This document shows positions 3,028 through 25,299 of a stretch of 64,000 bases of DNA, piece after piece. Both the position numbers and the translations under genes were made by a program. Location of the stretch: NCBI GenBank assembly GCA_011959285.1, contig BLLW01000006.1:1-64000 (forward strand). Direction: 5' to 3'. Positions within the stretch are counted from its first letter, which is position 1. Every line of letters begins with the position of its first letter. A model generated the notes under the pieces. The model did no database searches. It was not told where the DNA came from and worked only from the letters and a program-made list of their open reading frames with translations. The stretch comes from Lachnospiraceae bacterium (GTDB lineage Bacteria; Bacillota; Clostridia; Lachnospirales; Lachnospiraceae).

Positions 3028-3386
3028 AGAAATCCTCCTTCACACTTTTATAATATCTTTCGTGTATAATTATCACATAATTATTATATTTAAAACACAT
3101 AAAAATAACAATCCCTATCACACAATTATTTTAATTTTTCCACTTGCTCCCCACCAAAACAGAGGTAGTCTACGACACCACGGAATGAGGGATTGGATTG
3201 GAACTGTCGCAGGAAGTCCCAGTTACTGATTGACCGCTGCGTCAGCGTGCAGAACGCTCTCGGCTCCCGGTATAGCATGGCTTTTGTTGACAGCATATTG
3301 CACCCCATAGTTGCCAAACAGGAACGCGGCAGTTATTTGTGCACCGATATTTTTTTGTGTATAATAAAGTCCAGGAGGTACGGAAG
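3028..3386. other. Intergenic region with possible gene remnant
   Basis: About 360 bp without a convincing gene. The first 100 bases are AT-rich and should hold the promoter of the DUF4143 gene. A minus-strand open frame at about 3126-3317 gives a protein-like tail (NWDFLRQFQSNPSFRGVVDY) but has no start signal, and another minus frame nearby also reads as protein-like. This is compatible with a broken gene fragment that I cannot name. At the right end, TATAAT at 3360-3365 with TTGTGC 17 bp upstream is a plausible promoter for the XRE gene. Confidence 0.3.
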
Positions 3387-4061
3387 ATGGAATTTAAAGA
3401 AAAATTGCAGATGTTAAGGGCTGAAGCAAAAATTTCCCAGGAGGAACTAGCCGCAAAGCTAAATATATCCCGCCAATCTGTCACCAAGTGGGAAAACGGT
3501 CAATCTTTCCCTGATATCCAGAACCTGATCCAACTCAGTGATATCTTTAAAGTCTCTATCGACCGACTTGTAAAAGATAACGACAATTGTAATCTGAATA
3601 TTTTGGACAGACAGCAAGTTTCCGAACAGGATATGCGGATGTTTTTGATAAGAGCTAAAAACAGCACATATATTTCAGGCAGCAATCTCTCTGTATCCTC
3701 AAAACCAAATACCTATGAATATCATTATGCAGAAGGAGAATTTACCTATACCGACTCTTATATGGGGAACGAACATTTTGCAGGAGAGGAAACGGTCTAT
3801 CTGAAAAACCTCCCGGTATATGCAATGAATTATTATGGACAGATTTTGCGTGAAGATTTCAATATAGATTTCTTAAAAGAAATGCTTTCCCTTGTATCCT
3901 ATGAGAAACCTTTCAGGGGACCAGAGTATCACCAACAAGGCGGCTATGCTTATCATTGTAAAGTTCATGGAAATTTTGACTGTTTTTATGGAGAAGAGAC
4001 GATTTATTATCAACATGAAAAAGTGTATTTTTGTTTATTTCACGGAGGTGGTTTGTCTTGA
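3387..4061 (+). CDS. XRE-family transcriptional regulator with DUF5680-like domain
   Basis: An N-terminal helix-turn-helix (about residues 1-60, including KISQEELAAKLNISRQSVTK) is a typical XRE/Cro fold that binds DNA. The C-terminal 150 residues resemble DUF5680, a domain often fused to XRE in Firmicutes and thought to sense a ligand. The ATG at 3387 lies 8 bases after AGGAGG; the longer frame from 3339 would overlap the promoter, so I use the shorter form (224 aa). Its TGA overlaps the TTG start of the radical SAM gene, so the two are translationally coupled. Confidence 0.82.
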   Translation: MEFKEKLQMLRAEAKISQEELAAKLNISRQSVTKWENGQSFPDIQNLIQLSDIFKVSIDRLVKDNDNCNLNILDRQQVSEQDMRMFLIRAKNSTYISGSNLSVSSKPNTYEYHYAEGEFTYTDSYMGNEHFAGEETVYLKNLPVYAMNYYGQILREDFNIDFLKEMLSLVSYEKPFRGPEYHQQGGYAYHCKVHGNFDCFYGEETIYYQHEKVYFCLFHGGGLS

Positions 4062-6602: not shown

Positions 6603-7895
6603 TTAGTTTTTCAGCGGACTTTCCCTGTAAATAATATCGTCTCTTCCCGGTCCGTTGGAAACCATAGTAATGGGATATCCAATCTGTCCCTCAATAAACT
6701 CTACGTATTTTCTGCAGTTCTCCGGCAGATCCTCGTATTTTTTGATACCCCTAATATCACACTTCCAGCCGGGCAGGGTCTTAAGGACCGGTTTTGCTTT
6801 CTCTAATTTATGGGTTACAGGAAAGTCTGTGGTCACTTCCCCATCGATTTCATACCCAACGCACACCGGAATCTCGTCCAGATATCCCAGCACATCCAAA
6901 ACGGTAAAGGCAACATCAGTGGTTCCCTGCAGTCTGCATCCGTATTTGGAGGCAACACAGTCAAACCATCCCATGCGTCTGGGACGCCCTGTAGTTGCGC
7001 CAAATTCTCCGCCGTCTCCGCCTCTGCGGCGCAGTTCGTCCGCTTCGTCCCCAAAAATCTCAGAGACGAACGCCCCTGCTCCCACTGCGGAGGAGTAAGC
7101 CTTGCACACGGTAATGATTTCTTTTATCTCATAAGGCGGGATTCCAGCTCCAATAGCGCCGTAGGCAGCCAGTGTGGAGGAGGATGTGACCATGGGATAA
7201 ATGCCGTGATCCGTATCTTTTAAAGTTCCAAGCTGTCCCTCCAGCAAAATGGTCTTTCCCTCTTTGATAGCCTTATGCAGATAAGAAGATACGTCGCATA
7301 CATAAGGCTCGATCATTTCTTTATATTCATGGAGCGTCGCAAGCAGCTCCCCAGGATCGATGACCGGCTTATGGTACATGTGTTCAAGCATGACGTTTTT
7401 CTGCTCGCAGACCCGCTCTACCTTTTCTTTAAGCAGTTCCTCGTCAAAAAGCTCGCTCACCTGGAAACCGATCTTGGCATATTTATCTGAATAGAAAGGC
7501 GCAATGCCGGATTTGGTGGAACCGAAAGACTTTCCGCCCAGCCGTTCTTCTTCGTATTGATCGAACAGAATATGGTACGGCATCACCATCTGCGCCCTGT
7601 CTGAAACCAGAATCTTAGGCATCGGCACATTTCTGTCTGTGATCGATTTAATCTCGTTAAAAAGAACTGGAATATTTAATGCCACTCCATTGCCGATAAT
7701 GCTGGTGGTGTGGCTATAGAACACACCCGACGGCAGCGTATGCAGCGCAAACTTGCCATACTCATTTACAATCGTGTGTCCTGCATTGGCGCCTCCCTGA
7801 AAACGGACGATGATATCCGCCTGCTGTGCCAGCATATCTGTAATCTTACCTTTTCCTTCGTCGCCCCAATTGGCGCCCACTACTGCTTTAACCAT
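6603..7895 (-). CDS. purA: Adenylosuccinate synthetase
   Basis: This enzyme joins IMP and aspartate using GTP, the first committed step from IMP to AMP. GANWGDEGKGK near the N-terminus is the GTP-binding signature, followed by FQGGANAGHT and later SSAVGAGAF and TGRPRRMGWFD. I place the start at ATG 7895 (MVKAVVG, 430 aa). An in-frame ATG four codons earlier overlaps the GGAGG ribosome site and is therefore unlikely. A 9-bp hairpin lies in the leader. queH follows. Confidence 0.96.
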   Translation of the reverse strand: MVKAVVGANWGDEGKGKITDMLAQQADIIVRFQGGANAGHTIVNEYGKFALHTLPSGVFYSHTTSIIGNGVALNIPVLFNEIKSITDRNVPMPKILVSDRAQMVMPYHILFDQYEEERLGGKSFGSTKSGIAPFYSDKYAKIGFQVSELFDEELLKEKVERVCEQKNVMLEHMYHKPVIDPGELLATLHEYKEMIEPYVCDVSSYLHKAIKEGKTILLEGQLGTLKDTDHGIYPMVTSSSTLAAYGAIGAGIPPYEIKEIITVCKAYSSAVGAGAFVSEIFGDEADELRRRGGDGGEFGATTGRPRRMGWFDCVASKYGCRLQGTTDVAFTVLDVLGYLDEIPVCVGYEIDGEVTTDFPVTHKLEKAKPVLKTLPGWKCDIRGIKKYEDLPENCRKYVEFIEGQIGYPITMVSNGPGRDDIIYRESPLKN

Positions 7896-18483: not shown

Positions 18484-20109
18484 TTATTTTGTCTCCTTAA
18501 AGATGAGCCTTGTGCGCACGCCGTTTTCTATATTGTCAATCTTCAGTTCAAATCCCATAAGCCTGCTGTAATAGGACGCCACATACAGTCCCAGTCCTTT
18601 CCCCTTCCTGCTCTCGTCACTGCTGACAAAAGGATCAAAGACATTCGGAAGCAGGGCTTCATCTATGGTGACACCGCTGTTTTCTATTTGGATTTCGCTA
18701 TCTGAAAGCATAATCGTAATCTGTTCTCCCTCCGGCGTATATCCTGCCGCATTGGAACATAGATTATCCAATATCTTCTTCATCATTTCCCGGTCTGCCT
18801 GAACAATTCCATTTCCTGTGACAGTCAGGTTCAACTTCTTATCCTCCAGCTGAACCATGTAAGCCTTTAAAAGTTCTTCCGTCAATTCCTTGAGGGAAAC
18901 CGGTTCCCTCTGCATATGACCTGCATGATAATTCAGATACAGGATATCCTCCACAATCTTTCTCATGGATAAAAGCTGCTTTTTTACTTCCGGAAGATAT
19001 TCCTTGGTGTTCTTATATTTCCCCACCTCGTTTATCATGCCTTCTACCAGCAAAAGCGCCGCTGAAATCGGTGTCTTGAGCTGATGGGAAGAGGCTCTTA
19101 AGAAAACCTCCTGTCTGGTATTTTCCTCTTGCAGGGCATTGTTCTTCTGCTCCAGCTCCAGATACTTATCCCTAAGCTCCTCATATAATTCCTGCAAAGC
19201 CCTTCCCAAGGCGCCAATCTCGTCTTCACCGCCTCCGTCAAAGGCTTCCACATCAAAATTCTTGGCAAACTTTGCACTTTCCGCATACCCTGCCAAACGG
19301 ATAATGGGATTTACAATCTTGCCTGAAAAAAAGCGGGAGGAAATCAAAATCAGCAGAAAAGTAACTGCAATGATCATAGGCAGGCTTCCCACCACCACCG
19401 GTCTGATTTCATCCATTCTGGGCGTCAATGTTGGAACGACCGTAATGATATAGGCGTCCTGCGTGCCAGAAAGCGCCGTATAAGTTGTATACCCATAGTT
19501 TCCGTCTGAGGCTCCCGCCTCATAGACCAGAACCTGATCTGATACCGCATGAACCTTCATATACTCTTCCGTGAACTCGCCCATGCTCTCTTTCTTTTCT
19601 ACCTGTACTTCTACGAAATCCTCTCCTGAAAACAGATCTGCATCTGCAAATTTTTCCTTAATCGTGTCCCATTGTTCCTGAAATCCTTCTTCCCCAAATT
19701 CCTCCGAAACTTCCTCTTCTTCAATACTTTCATGGGATTGCGCTTCTTCTGAAAAAGTCTGCTCGCCCATGCCCTTCATTCTGTTTCTGAGGTTATCCAG
19801 CATAGTGATCAATTCTGTGTCCTTTATGTCTGCAGTAAGTTTAAAGAATTTTCCTGACAGATAAAGCTTCGTCCCTTCATAGGGCACCTCCAGGGTATAA
19901 GCTGACGAAGGGTTTTTAACCTCCAGATTATCGTAACTGCGGCTTTCTATATATCCTTCCTGAATCGCCACCACATTTTTAAAATTGCTTTCTTTCACAT
20001 AATCCACATATAGCGAAGGCAGCATAAGGACAAAATATCCTATGATAAAGACGACCATAATCGCTGCAATCGCCATGCTGTATAGAAACGTTTTTTTAGA
20101 CAGTCCCAT
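18484..20109 (-). CDS. Membrane sensor histidine kinase
   Basis: From ATG 20109 the kinase is 541 residues. TM1 lies at about 6-28, a 200-residue extracytoplasmic sensor rich in acidic residues follows, and TM2 is near 244-264 with a HAMP linker. The H-box is ASSHQLKTPISAAL, and the ATPase domain shows the N-box DNLCSNAAGYTP and the G-box GKGLGLYVASYYSRL. It phosphorylates the OmpR-type regulator encoded upstream. An ATG four codons earlier overlaps the GGAGG site and is not used here. Confidence 0.92.
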   Translation of the reverse strand: MGLSKKTFLYSMAIAAIMVVFIIGYFVLMLPSLYVDYVKESNFKNVVAIQEGYIESRSYDNLEVKNPSSAYTLEVPYEGTKLYLSGKFFKLTADIKDTELITMLDNLRNRMKGMGEQTFSEEAQSHESIEEEEVSEEFGEEGFQEQWDTIKEKFADADLFSGEDFVEVQVEKKESMGEFTEEYMKVHAVSDQVLVYEAGASDGNYGYTTYTALSGTQDAYIITVVPTLTPRMDEIRPVVVGSLPMIIAVTFLLILISSRFFSGKIVNPIIRLAGYAESAKFAKNFDVEAFDGGGEDEIGALGRALQELYEELRDKYLELEQKNNALQEENTRQEVFLRASSHQLKTPISAALLLVEGMINEVGKYKNTKEYLPEVKKQLLSMRKIVEDILYLNYHAGHMQREPVSLKELTEELLKAYMVQLEDKKLNLTVTGNGIVQADREMMKKILDNLCSNAAGYTPEGEQITIMLSDSEIQIENSGVTIDEALLPNVFDPFVSSDESRKGKGLGLYVASYYSRLMGFELKIDNIENGVRTRLIFKETK

Positions 20110-20767
20110 CTTTTCCTCCATTCTGAAACTGATAACCGACTCCGATTACTGTTTTGATATAATTCCCGGGAAGTTTCTTCCGCAGATTTTTTACATGTGC
20201 ATCGATAATCCTGTCATTTCCCACATAATCCTCATTGAATATGCGCAGAATCAACTGCTCTCTGGTAAACGCCCGCTTCGGTTCCTTATAGAGCACCTGC
20301 AGCAGCAGAAATTCGCTCAAGGTCAGTTCCAGCGCCGCGCCGTCATAAAATGCCTGGTAAGACTCTTCATGGAGCACCAGCCCCTTCTCTTCCCTCTGCT
20401 CGGTCCTTTTCACCCGCCGCAGAATGGTCTCCATTCTTTTTAACAAAATAATAGGAGACACCGGCTTGATGACATAATCGTCCGCATAGAGATTAAATGC
20501 CTGCACCTGGGTCTTTTCATCTCCCAGCGCCGTCAGCATGATCGTCGCCATCTCCGGCTTATGCTCTTTGATATAAGCAAGCACGTCAAGCCCGCTCACC
20601 TTGGGAACCATGATATCCAGCACCGCCATATCAAAGTGCCCGGTCTTTAAATATTCCAACGCCTCTTTGCCATCACCGGCACAGATTACATCGTAATTCT
20701 GCATTTTCATATATTCCGTCAGAACCTCCCGTATGGTGGGTTCATCTTCTAAAAATAAAATCTGCAT
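20096..20767 (-). CDS. OmpR/PhoB-family response regulator
   Basis: The 223-residue regulator has an N-terminal receiver (EDEP acidic pocket, MAVLDIMVPKVSG with the phosphoacceptor Asp near 52, Lys in YVIKPVS) and a C-terminal winged helix (FTREQLILRIFN, RIIDAHVKNLRKKL). It overlaps the kinase by 14 bp. The ABC exporter downstream is the probable target, as is usual for such four-gene sets. Confidence 0.94.
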   Translation of the reverse strand: MQILFLEDEPTIREVLTEYMKMQNYDVICAGDGKEALEYLKTGHFDMAVLDIMVPKVSGLDVLAYIKEHKPEMATIMLTALGDEKTQVQAFNLYADDYVIKPVSPIILLKRMETILRRVKRTEQREEKGLVLHEESYQAFYDGAALELTLSEFLLLQVLYKEPKRAFTREQLILRIFNEDYVGNDRIIDAHVKNLRKKLPGNYIKTVIGVGYQFQNGGKDGTV

Positions 20768-21027: not shown

Positions 21028-21056
21028 TTGCTATTTCCCAAATAATCGAATATAAT
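21028..21056 (+). promoter_or_regulatory. Promoter of the antitoxin-like RNA
   Basis: TTGCTA (21028-21033) and a perfect TATAAT (21051-21056) are separated by 17 bp. Transcription would begin around 21062-21064, a few bases before the first RNA repeat. The promoter looks functional. Confidence 0.65.
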
Positions 21057-21069
21057 AAGGGTACAATAA

Positions 21070-21171
21070 GATTATCGCCTAAGAGCAGGGCGAGACTAAA
21101 ATAAAGACGGCTCAATGGATGATTCTCCTTGTAGAGCGCAAGGAGCTTAAACAAAAGAAGGCTCAATGGAT
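21070..21171 (+). repeat. Two 51-nt tandem repeats of the antitoxin RNA
   Basis: Copy 1 spans 21070-21120 and copy 2 spans 21121-21171. They share GATT at the start, the AGAGC loop, an A-rich linker and the end GGCTCAATGGAT. Most other differences fall in the stem. Confidence 0.8.
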
Positions 21172-21174
21172 TAG

Positions 21175-21203
21175 TACCCTCTGCATAAGCAGAGGGTATT
21201 TTT
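21175..21203 (+). terminator. Intrinsic terminator between antitoxin RNA and toxin
   Basis: TACCCTCTGC (21175-21184) and GCAGAGGGTA (21189-21198) form a perfect 10-bp stem with an ATAA loop, followed by TTTTTATA. In type III systems such a terminator limits toxin expression relative to the RNA. Confidence 0.85.
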
Positions 21204-21216
21204 ATAGGAGCATACT

Positions 21217-21631
21217 ATGCAATTAAAAATACTTTCTGAAAAATTTTATGATACATATTAGAATTATAAAGAAATATTAAAAAAGAAAACTGACCTTATG
21301 CATGCCTAACCATACAGCTGAGCGGACATTTATTTGCGATTCCATTTCGACATCATATTAAACATCCGTATGCCTTTTACACCATAGGAGAATACGGACT
21401 TGATTACACCAAAACTGTCATAATTACAGACCCACTCTTTTTATCTAATGAAAGCCCCTCTATAGAAAACAAAGAATATGCCATTATAAAACGCGAGGAA
21501 CAAAAATACGCTATGGTCTCTCCCAATATGCCAATCAATACAAAAGGGCTATGAAGCATCCATACAATCCCAGAAGTAAGAATATATTAAAATACAGTAC
21601 GTTAAAATACTTCACAGAATATTTATCATGA
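21217..21631 (+). pseudogene. Decayed TenpN/ToxN-like type III toxin
   Basis: ATG 21217 follows TAGGAG by six bases and opens MQLKILSEKFYDTY, then a TAG stop. Reading on with one frame change near 21295-21302 gives PYACLTIQLSGHLFAIPFRH, HIKHPYAFYTIGEYGLDYTK and SPSIENKEYAIIKREE. A second frame change in an A-run near 21507-21513 restores RYGLSQYANQYKRAMKHPYN and SKNILKYSTLKYFTEYLS up to TGA 21629-21631. Joined, this is about 138 residues, close to the 150-170 of TenpN/ToxN endoribonucleases. The FAIPFRHHIKH block resembles that family as I remember it. One nonsense and two frameshift lesions mean no active toxin. Confidence 0.72.
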
Positions 21632-21641
21632 TACCCATCTT

Positions 21642-22445
21642 TCAGTTTCCCGTACTATAATATCTTTTCACGCTCACCCGCCAAAATACATATGCCACAA
21701 GGTACACGATAATCCCCACAAGCGGCGCGATATAAATGTAGATTTCATTATAATTCACCATATCCGGCTTCCGCAAAAGGTATTGCGCCGGAAAGTAGTT
21801 CACGAATGCAAAGGGAATCACATATATGATCAGCCCTTGTATCAATTTGTGGTAAATACTGATTGGATAACCTGCGAACTTACGCATGTTCCAATAAAAA
21901 ATCTCCCGGATGCTGTTGGTCTCCACAAAATAAAAGCTCAAGGATGAAAAAATAATGAACATTCCCCCCTGTATTAAGACGCCGCTAATAATCGCGCATA
22001 CATAATATAGAATCGTTGCAAAGTTCCAGTGTATTCCCACCTTTCCTGCAGATACGAGAAACAAAAGCACCCCTAAAGTCCCATGTCCCACCGATGCAAT
22101 TAAATCCGCATTGTTCAAAATCAGCTGGAACAAAAGCCCCCTTGGTCTTACAAGCAGCCGGTCAAATCTGCCTTCCCTGATCATCCGCGAGAAATCCCGC
22201 AAATCGGCAAACAGGGAAACGACAAATGCATAAGTCAGAAACAAAATGCTGAACAGAAACAACATCTCATTTACATTCCAACCGTTGATGCTGTCAAATT
22301 TAAGCAGTGCCAGATAAATGACAATGATATTGGCAGATTCCCTGATAAACACCGCCAGCGCAGCCACCAGCGAATCCACCCTGTACTGCATCCTTGTGCT
22401 GAAACTCATCTTCAGCGACTGCAAAGCAATCCTCACTTCACCCAT
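21642..22445 (-). CDS. ABC-2 family permease (COG3694-like)
   Basis: This 267-residue polytopic membrane protein has about six helices and the cytosolic motif MIREGRFDRLLVRPRGLLFQ typical of the COG3694 (DUF990) permeases. It is the last of a four-gene exporter operon with a COG4587 permease and two ATPases. I start at ATG 22445, since the in-frame ATG at 22457 overlaps the GGAGG site. Its 3' end nearly touches the convergent toxin remnant. Confidence 0.85.
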   Translation of the reverse strand: MGEVRIALQSLKMSFSTRMQYRVDSLVAALAVFIRESANIIVIYLALLKFDSINGWNVNEMLFLFSILFLTYAFVVSLFADLRDFSRMIREGRFDRLLVRPRGLLFQLILNNADLIASVGHGTLGVLLFLVSAGKVGIHWNFATILYYVCAIISGVLIQGGMFIIFSSLSFYFVETNSIREIFYWNMRKFAGYPISIYHKLIQGLIIYVIPFAFVNYFPAQYLLRKPDMVNYNEIYIYIAPLVGIIVYLVAYVFWRVSVKRYYSTGN

Positions 22446-22481
22446 TTTTTCCTCCATTCCGAAGCGTTTAACGCCATCCTT

Positions 22482-24269: not shown

Positions 24270-25175
24270 TTACCCTCTATAAATCTTCTTAATCGTATCT
24301 TCCAAATTTGGTTCAAAAAGCTTTACATCCTTAATCTTGCATTTCTCCATGACCTGTTTTAAAATCTGGGCTGTCCCAATCTTTTGCTTATCGTAGACAA
24401 TGGTCAGCCCATCGTTATCCATACTGTACTTTTCAAGCGGCAGATCCTCGAAATCAGGAAAGCCCTCCGAAATCTTTATCTCTATCCGATAATAAGGCGA
24501 GAACTGCTTCATGATCCGCTCCATGCTTCCGTCAAAGATCAGTCTTCCTTGGTCAATCAGAAGCACCCTGTCGCACAGCTGTTCCACCTCTGCAAGCTGG
24601 TTGCTGGTATAGATCATGGTGACCCGCCTCTCATTTTTATATTTCTCAAAGTACCCCATGATCTTATATTTGATTGAAAGATCCAGTCCATTCATGACCT
24701 CATCGAGCATCAAAATCTTCGGCTGTGCAAGCAGCGCGTAAACCATTTCGCACCGCATCCTTTCCCCCAGAGACAGTCCCTCCGGCGTCCTGTCCATAAA
24801 TGCCCTTATTTCAAAGATATCGGCAAGCAGTATAAGCCTTTCTCCGGCATCCTTCCGGTTCAGCCGGTACATGCTGATACAGTTGTCAAAGGAGTCCTTC
24901 ACCTTGAGCGTCTCCCATAGCTGGGACCTTGTACCCGATACATATGCCAGCTTTCTGAGCGCCTGCTTTTCTTCTATCAGACTCTCCTTTCCGCCCGACC
25001 TTATGAATCCGGAATCCGGCTTGATCATTCCGGCAATGGTATTTAACAGCGTCGTCTTCCCGGCACCGTTTAATCCGATGATTCCAACATTTTCATTTTC
25101 TGCGATATGAAAGGAGATATCCTTAAGCACCTCCCTGCCGGATAAAGTCTTGCACACATTCTGAAGTACAATCAA
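24270..25175 (-). CDS. ABC transporter ATP-binding protein
   Basis: A 301-residue ATPase closely related to the next one: Walker A GLNGAGKTT, signature LSLGERMRCE and Walker B LMLDEVMNGLD. The residue after Asp-Glu is Val rather than Pro. It starts with TTG at 25175 behind GGTGGAGTG. Two ATPases plus two permeases suggest a heteromeric exporter. The operon begins just downstream of a 39-bp tandem repeat. Confidence 0.9.
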   Translation of the reverse strand: MIVLQNVCKTLSGREVLKDISFHIAENENVGIIGLNGAGKTTLLNTIAGMIKPDSGFIRSGGKESLIEEKQALRKLAYVSGTRSQLWETLKVKDSFDNCISMYRLNRKDAGERLILLADIFEIRAFMDRTPEGLSLGERMRCEMVYALLAQPKILMLDEVMNGLDLSIKYKIMGYFEKYKNERRVTMIYTSNQLAEVEQLCDRVLLIDQGRLIFDGSMERIMKQFSPYYRIEIKISEGFPDFEDLPLEKYSMDNDGLTIVYDKQKIGTAQILKQVMEKCKIKDVKLFEPNLEDTIKKIYRG

Positions 25176-25200: not shown

Positions 25201-25299
25201 CCTTCGCGAGGCATACTCATACCATACAACGGGCGCCTCACCTTGCGAGGCACCCTTATGCCATACAACGGGCGCCTCACCTTGCGAGGCACCCTTATG
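25201..25299 (-). repeat. 39-bp tandem repeats with hairpin potential
   Basis: One complete unit (25231-25269), a second copy truncated after about 30 bases (25270-25299) and a degenerate partial copy (25201-25230) lie in tandem. Each full unit has GCCTC and GAGGC arms around a 7-nt spacer. On the minus strand they precede the ABC exporter operon, so they may be in its leader or promoter region. Confidence 0.75.

Follow-up and report, generated by a model that had tools for sequence, protein, structure and literature searches.

In the ToxIN and CptIN systems, the endoribonuclease toxin cuts its own leader RNA into units, and these pseudoknotted units lock the toxin; a terminator keeps the RNA in excess of the toxin mRNA. 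The solved type III antitoxins are pseudoknots, as passages of PMC5086642 describe, and the TenpIN system of Photorhabdus aborts phages, according to part of PMC5377504. The stretch of Lachnospiraceae DNA analyzed here (64,000 nucleotides, hereafter the window) holds, at positions 21028–21631, a broken copy of this already known TenpIN type. A first-pass annotation had proposed a decayed type III locus with an apparently intact RNA part, and we found the family, the anatomy, the lesions, and a whole copy in a sister genome. Because an Rfam match, a TenpIN match, the whole sister copy, and the stops and frame changes coincide, this is very probably a decayed chromosomal TenpIN locus in which the toxin is a pseudogene and the RNA cassette (promoter-like site, two units, and terminator) is whole.

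All features of the locus lie on the plus strand. It begins with a promoter-like stretch, TTGCTA-17-TATAAT (positions 21028–21056), which a consensus scan scored at 10 of 12 matches and which is unaltered in the sister genome L035; sites of this kind are frequent in the window (9, against 5.7 in shuffles, S.D. 2.5) and are no evidence on their own. Two antitoxin RNA units of 51 nt each follow (unit 1, 21070–21120; unit 2, 21121–21171) and agree at 35 of 51 positions. Their best self-match over 38 nt (29/38, at a lag of 51) was equalled in none of 500 first-order Markov resamples; Tandem Repeats Finder had no entry at the two units. Between the RNA and the toxin lies a terminator hairpin with a T-rich tail (21173–21205), identified from its core and its predicted fold. 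The core (21175–21198) is a perfect 10-bp stem with a 4-nt loop, 12 pairs form in the predicted fold, and a T-rich stretch comes after it; the hairpin was absent from the list of a simple terminator scan. The region 21066–21204 folds better than its shuffles (z = −4.31; 0 of 200 equally good). A ribosome-site-like AGGAG, read from the sequence (21206–21210), stands 6 nt 5′ of the ATG (21217–21219) of the TenpIN-family toxin pseudogene (21217–21631); read in the frame of its whole relative, this would terminate at the TGA at 21629–21631.

The coordinates and the order given in the first-pass annotation for the promoter, the two 51-nt repeats, the 10-bp terminator, the ribosome site, and the toxin start were correct. 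It had also been right that the stretch escapes ORF calls: no ORF of at least 60 aa starting with ATG, GTG, or TTG was listed between 20768 and 21641, the interval separating a response-regulator gene (20096–20767, minus strand) from an ABC-2 permease gene (21642–22457, minus strand). Annotation based on ORFs misses such loci. Elsewhere in the window, a 39-bp tandem repeat (25201–25299; 2.5 copies, 91% matches) lies beside an ABC transporter gene (24270–25175).

When the whole window was searched against Rfam, a single match reached its gathering score: unit 2 is RF02925, “6A RNA” (45.2 bits, gathering score 41.2, E = 1.2 × 10−5), and spans the whole model. The Rfam search of the repeat RNA that the first-pass annotation had proposed came out in its favor with unit 2, RF02925 being a family that often precedes TenpIN-like toxins; unit 1 alone gave no Rfam match up to E = 1. 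Three other RNA families fell short of their gathering scores and were rejected: PyrR (26.7 bits, gathering score 54), PsrR1 (19.7 bits, 42), and the Betaproteobacteria toxic sRNA (18.3 bits, 50).

We aligned 20 units from 13 genomes, drawn from 27 units by omitting 4 identical and 3 near-identical copies. A hairpin with a loop-to-tail pseudoknot was paired in 94.7% of 228 cells; shifting the partner lowered this to 35 to 41%. The structure was derived from the aligned sequences, so the shifted control favors it; the compensating changes are independent of that. Such changes on both sides were seen at 11 of 12 pairs overall and at all four pseudoknot pairs, whose cells were 98.8% paired in the 20 units, and the covariation score was reached by 0 of 500 shuffles. 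In the window, unit 1 has the covariation-supported hairpin and a GAGC/GCUC pseudoknot, the stem and pseudoknot are present in unit 2, and both units retain all four pseudoknot pairs. The 6A units are thus predicted to fold as a covarying pseudoknot. The model line of RF02925 displays none, whereas the units here are predicted to form one.

At E ≤ 1 × 10−4, 6A RNA was found in 13 of 392 genomes of an order sample, in 2 of 398 of a phylum sample (own genome included), and in 3 of 37 of the genus (own included), giving 16 different genomes, in which toxins were assigned by reading frames. A whole TenpIN-like toxin lay directly downstream of the RNA in 10 of the 16 (G004, G137, G153, G175, G245, G267, G280, G303, G411, and G782); in the remaining six the toxin was upstream (G044), broken (G000, the window's genome, and G019), or missing (G074, G106, and G135). 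Eight whole toxins scored over the cut-off of the NCBIfam TenpIN profile NF047358 (G411, G245, G280, G137, G044, L035, G267, and G175), and visual inspection was the basis for G153, G303, and G782. The order in G044 (contig C6; L006/L038) is reversed, with the toxin (L006, 854–1405; 109.5 bits) upstream of two 6A units from L038, 6311; these units have a promoter-like site of their own, and no units were seen 5′ of the toxin.

RF02925 is classed in Rfam simply as an sRNA gene, and this class and the three genomes with 6A RNA and no toxin would both suit a common type of small regulatory RNA that acts on some other target, next to which the toxin is incidental. That reading is very unlikely in view of the toxin directly downstream in 10 of 16 genomes, the resemblance of the covarying pseudoknot units to the solved type III antitoxins (as passages of PMC5086642 describe them), and the opposite direction of the window genes on either side. 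On the grounds of toxin adjacency and the covarying pseudoknot, we instead read 6A RNA as likely to be the antitoxin units of a TenpIN branch. This assignment is made here, in place of the sRNA class given by Rfam; a literature search on RF02925 returned no papers, and neither did one on “6A RNA” with Clostridium and small RNA. An Rfam family labelled merely as sRNA thereby gains a likely identity.

For the toxin, the pieces were searched unjoined. The middle piece matched NF047358 with E = 3.1 × 10−18 and 66.4 bits, below the 90-bit whole-protein cut-off, as can happen with a fragment; neither the first nor the last piece had an NCBIfam match on its own. In a profile search of the window's own genome, the middle and C-terminal pieces scored 69.8 and 22.3 bits, and no TenpIN match over the cut-off was present in its 317 contigs. 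The pieces had been likened to TenpN-like toxins, which the match of the middle piece and the whole orthologue in L035 (134.8 bits) bear out; of the families then named for comparison, TenpIN matches through NCBIfam, but the Pfam ToxN profile PF13958 does not, either with the window pieces or with the whole relative. No toxin piece matched Pfam or PADLOC. A single-sequence structure prediction was too poor for a fold (pLDDT 46.6), and PDB sequence searches found no solved TenpIN relative; a ribosomal L4 chain (E = 0.017) was taken as a chance match.

A further type III-like remnant, unlike the one described above, is present on contig C58 of the window's own genome (L002, ∼3350–3508, minus strand); the leader in front of it contains a terminator-like hairpin. 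The toxin-like frame of this remnant scored 31 bits to TenpIN over profile positions 3–54 only, and the family sequence is lost part-way. A leader similar to that of L002 occurs in G019 (contig C28, L052), where the front part of the toxin is missing. Rfam had no name for the other type III leaders L002, L052, L061, L041, L044, and L049.

The sister genome L035 is an uncultured Lachnospiraceae MAG (contig CATLAK010000002.1, 302,971 bases); it and contig C2 of G004 carry an identical toxin and were taken as one contig. L035 and the window are 96.8% identical over 8259 columns, with the locus at the corresponding place. Its toxin frame is open, encodes 138 aa, and scored 134.8 bits with NF047358 against the cut-off of 90. 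An intact copy in relatives, which the first-pass annotation had suggested looking for, thus exists, with the repeat-terminator-gene order and a whole toxin. Of the 13 substitutions that distinguish the window toxin from that of L035 over 415 bases, 6 are silent, 5 replace an amino acid, and 2 create stops; there are also two indels. The two frame changes noted earlier were found as such; the in-frame stops number two, where a single TAG had been counted.

Could the toxin be whole in the organism and the lesions be assembly errors? The genome is fragmented into 317 contigs, and indels, a frequent kind of error, make up two of the four lesions. However, the other two are stop-making substitutions, 11 further substitutions separate the toxin from that of L035, and one small gene is unlikely to have collected four errors independently, so that we regard assembly error as extremely improbable. 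A decayed toxin gene is the reading that we retain.

The site of the module varies among related genomes. The permease was detected at E ≤ 1 × 10−40 in 13 of 37 genomes of the genus; besides G004, five were close (82 to 97% identity: G013, G035, G034, G009, and G019). The slot between permease and response regulator is free of the module in G013 (gap of ∼171 bp) and G019 (∼67 bp). In G034 and G009 the response-regulator side was unmatched, and another gene is located there. In G035 (contig C32, L067), the slot is filled by an unrelated open frame, 178 codons long from stop to stop. Because the slot is empty or differently filled in close genomes, the TenpIN module of the window is, judged from these sequences, an accessory insert.

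We then compared rates of change between the window and L035. From promoter to terminator, 1 of 176 positions had changed, against 14 of 260 in the upstream intergenic DNA (P = 0.006); the difference in rate between RNA and toxin fell short of 0.05 (Fisher P = 0.076), and both comparisons rest on two genomes only. Over the whole stretch 262 of 8254 positions differed, with 19 of 672 in the response regulator, 17 of 816 in the first permease, and 3 of 789 in the second permease. The RNA cassette thus appears to change slowly, yet the second permease is equally slow, and with one genome pair, selection after toxin loss is not demonstrable.

The slow change of the cassette relative to the upstream DNA would nevertheless be expected if the cassette were retained after toxin loss as an anti-addiction shield against cognate TenpIN toxins that incoming elements bring into the cell. 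Against this, half of the divergence between the window and L035 falls in the lineage with the whole toxin. Other decayed loci bear on the same reading. TenpIN matches at E ≤ 0.01 occurred in 15 of 37 genomes of the genus and exceeded the cut-off in 8. By hand reading, the toxin was broken and at least one folded RNA unit was kept in the window (G000:C6) and at G019:C29, G035:C36, G009:C4, and G010:C192; the remnant at G019:C29 scored 18 bits (E = 0.0025). The retained units at these four other loci favor a shield. Another broken toxin, at G035:C12, had no RNA unit found. This count of decay omits weaker or other-branch matches (G000:C58, G019:C28, G027:C35, G005:C129, G035:C26, G009:C67, G015, and G020).

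The invariance of the RNA is matched where the toxin is whole. Comparison of G029:C144, G032:C12, G035:C36, and G009:C4 with one another gave 0 or 1 difference in the 103 bases of the two units and 68 to 129 in the 470 to 490 bases of the toxins; in the whole-toxin pair G029:C144 and G032:C12, the RNA differs at 0 of 103. Because that pair is equally invariant, invariance of the RNA alone is no proof of selection after loss, and conservation before the loss can explain it.

Of nine open-frame matches of at least 130 bits, eight had at least one RNA unit upstream, and the contig of the ninth (G060:C85) has 127 nt before the match. No whole toxin shown to be without RNA was seen among the hand-read loci of the genus, which matches the expected order of loss. 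Several loci depart from the common plan. At G029:C135 (L057), unrelated sequence takes the place of the C-terminal part of the toxin, the frame stays open, and one RNA unit is left upstream. In G060:C149 (L043), an insert that contains a 75-bp repeat separates the RNA terminator from the toxin frame, and the sequence ahead of the toxin match showed no ATG. Seven loci (L041, L042, L044, L045, L046, L048, and L051) belong to a second TenpIN antitoxin branch with 51–52-nt units and a CGGT/ACCG or CTGT/ACAG pseudoknot; Rfam at gathering score named nothing in the two that were tried, L041 and L044.

In genus g100, 6A RNA occurs where no toxin was found. Three of its four genomes (G074, G106, and G135) hold two 6A units preceded by a promoter-like stretch that was recognized by eye; a low-molecular-weight phosphatase gene flanks them on one side and an opposite-strand gene for a stress protein on the other (G074, L098, ∼6950–7060; the others in L099 and L100). 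In G106 the contig ends within the locus. In the fourth genome, G116, only a phosphatase of 54% identity was found. TenpIN was found in none of the four genomes, in a search whose 14 controls were silent too; the genus search with the same model had given its matches in 15 of 37. From −91 to +52, which covers unit 1 and the sequence upstream, 0 of 144 aligned bases differed in any of the three genome pairs. The P values of this conserved stretch against the phosphatase gene were 0.009, 0.009, and 0.04; against the next gene, P was 0.59 for G074-G106 and <1 × 10−7 for the other two pairs. Differences in unit 2 number 2 to 4 over 52 positions, with one pseudoknot pair lost in G106, and the three genomes amount to close to two lineages.

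The g100 RNA, present in three of four genomes with TenpIN in none and identical through unit 1 and the upstream stretch, speaks for a shield, but the variation of unit 2, the near-redundancy of the genomes, and the silence of all 14 controls speak against it. TenpIN-like genes were present in 56 plasmid records, all below 60% identity, a point in favor of a shield; no related toxin was found in phage records or viral contigs, and one narrow 6A pattern gave 0 matches in viral contigs. Anti-addiction by orphan antitoxins has been proposed for type II systems, according to part of PMC7354431. Weighing these points, we consider retention of the window cassette as a shield possible but improbable. 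It is likewise doubtful that toxin-less type III antitoxin RNAs form a standing class that serves as an RNA shield against incoming TenpIN toxins; such RNAs were not found in titles or abstracts on orphan or solitary antitoxins, TenpN, or anti-addiction. If the shield reading is true, the window would represent the first step, with the toxin dead and the RNA whole, and the g100 genomes the end state.

If the ToxIN/CptIN mechanism extends to the TenpIN branch of the window, loss of the RNA beside an active toxin should harm the cell, and the toxin would have to fail first. After such a failure, the antitoxin RNA may linger or be reused. The window toxin cannot be made whole, and the RNA would therefore be at most a free antitoxin; it may still be made and would now be partnerless in its cell. 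The decayed TenpIN locus can be read as a type III module caught in the course of decay, the toxin having failed first; a sister genome has a whole copy, and in others the site is free of the module.

Compared with known systems, the locus is closest to TenpIN (NF047358; Photorhabdus luminescens), which it resembles in the toxin family by profile, the order of repeats, terminator, and toxin, and the pseudoknot units; it differs in that the toxin is broken and the two 51-nt units are only 35/51 alike, and its activity is putative. ToxIN and CptIN are alike in gene order and in the pseudoknot antitoxin, as far as passages of PMC5086642 describe them, but their profile (PF13958, ToxN) is the one left unmatched here. 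In the orphan antitoxins of type II systems, as part of PMC7354431 presents them, an antitoxin is likewise left without its toxin; those antitoxins are proteins, whereas that of the window is an RNA with a hypothetical protective role. Should toxin-less cassettes of the g100 kind prove protective, the anti-addiction model would cover RNA as well as protein antitoxins.
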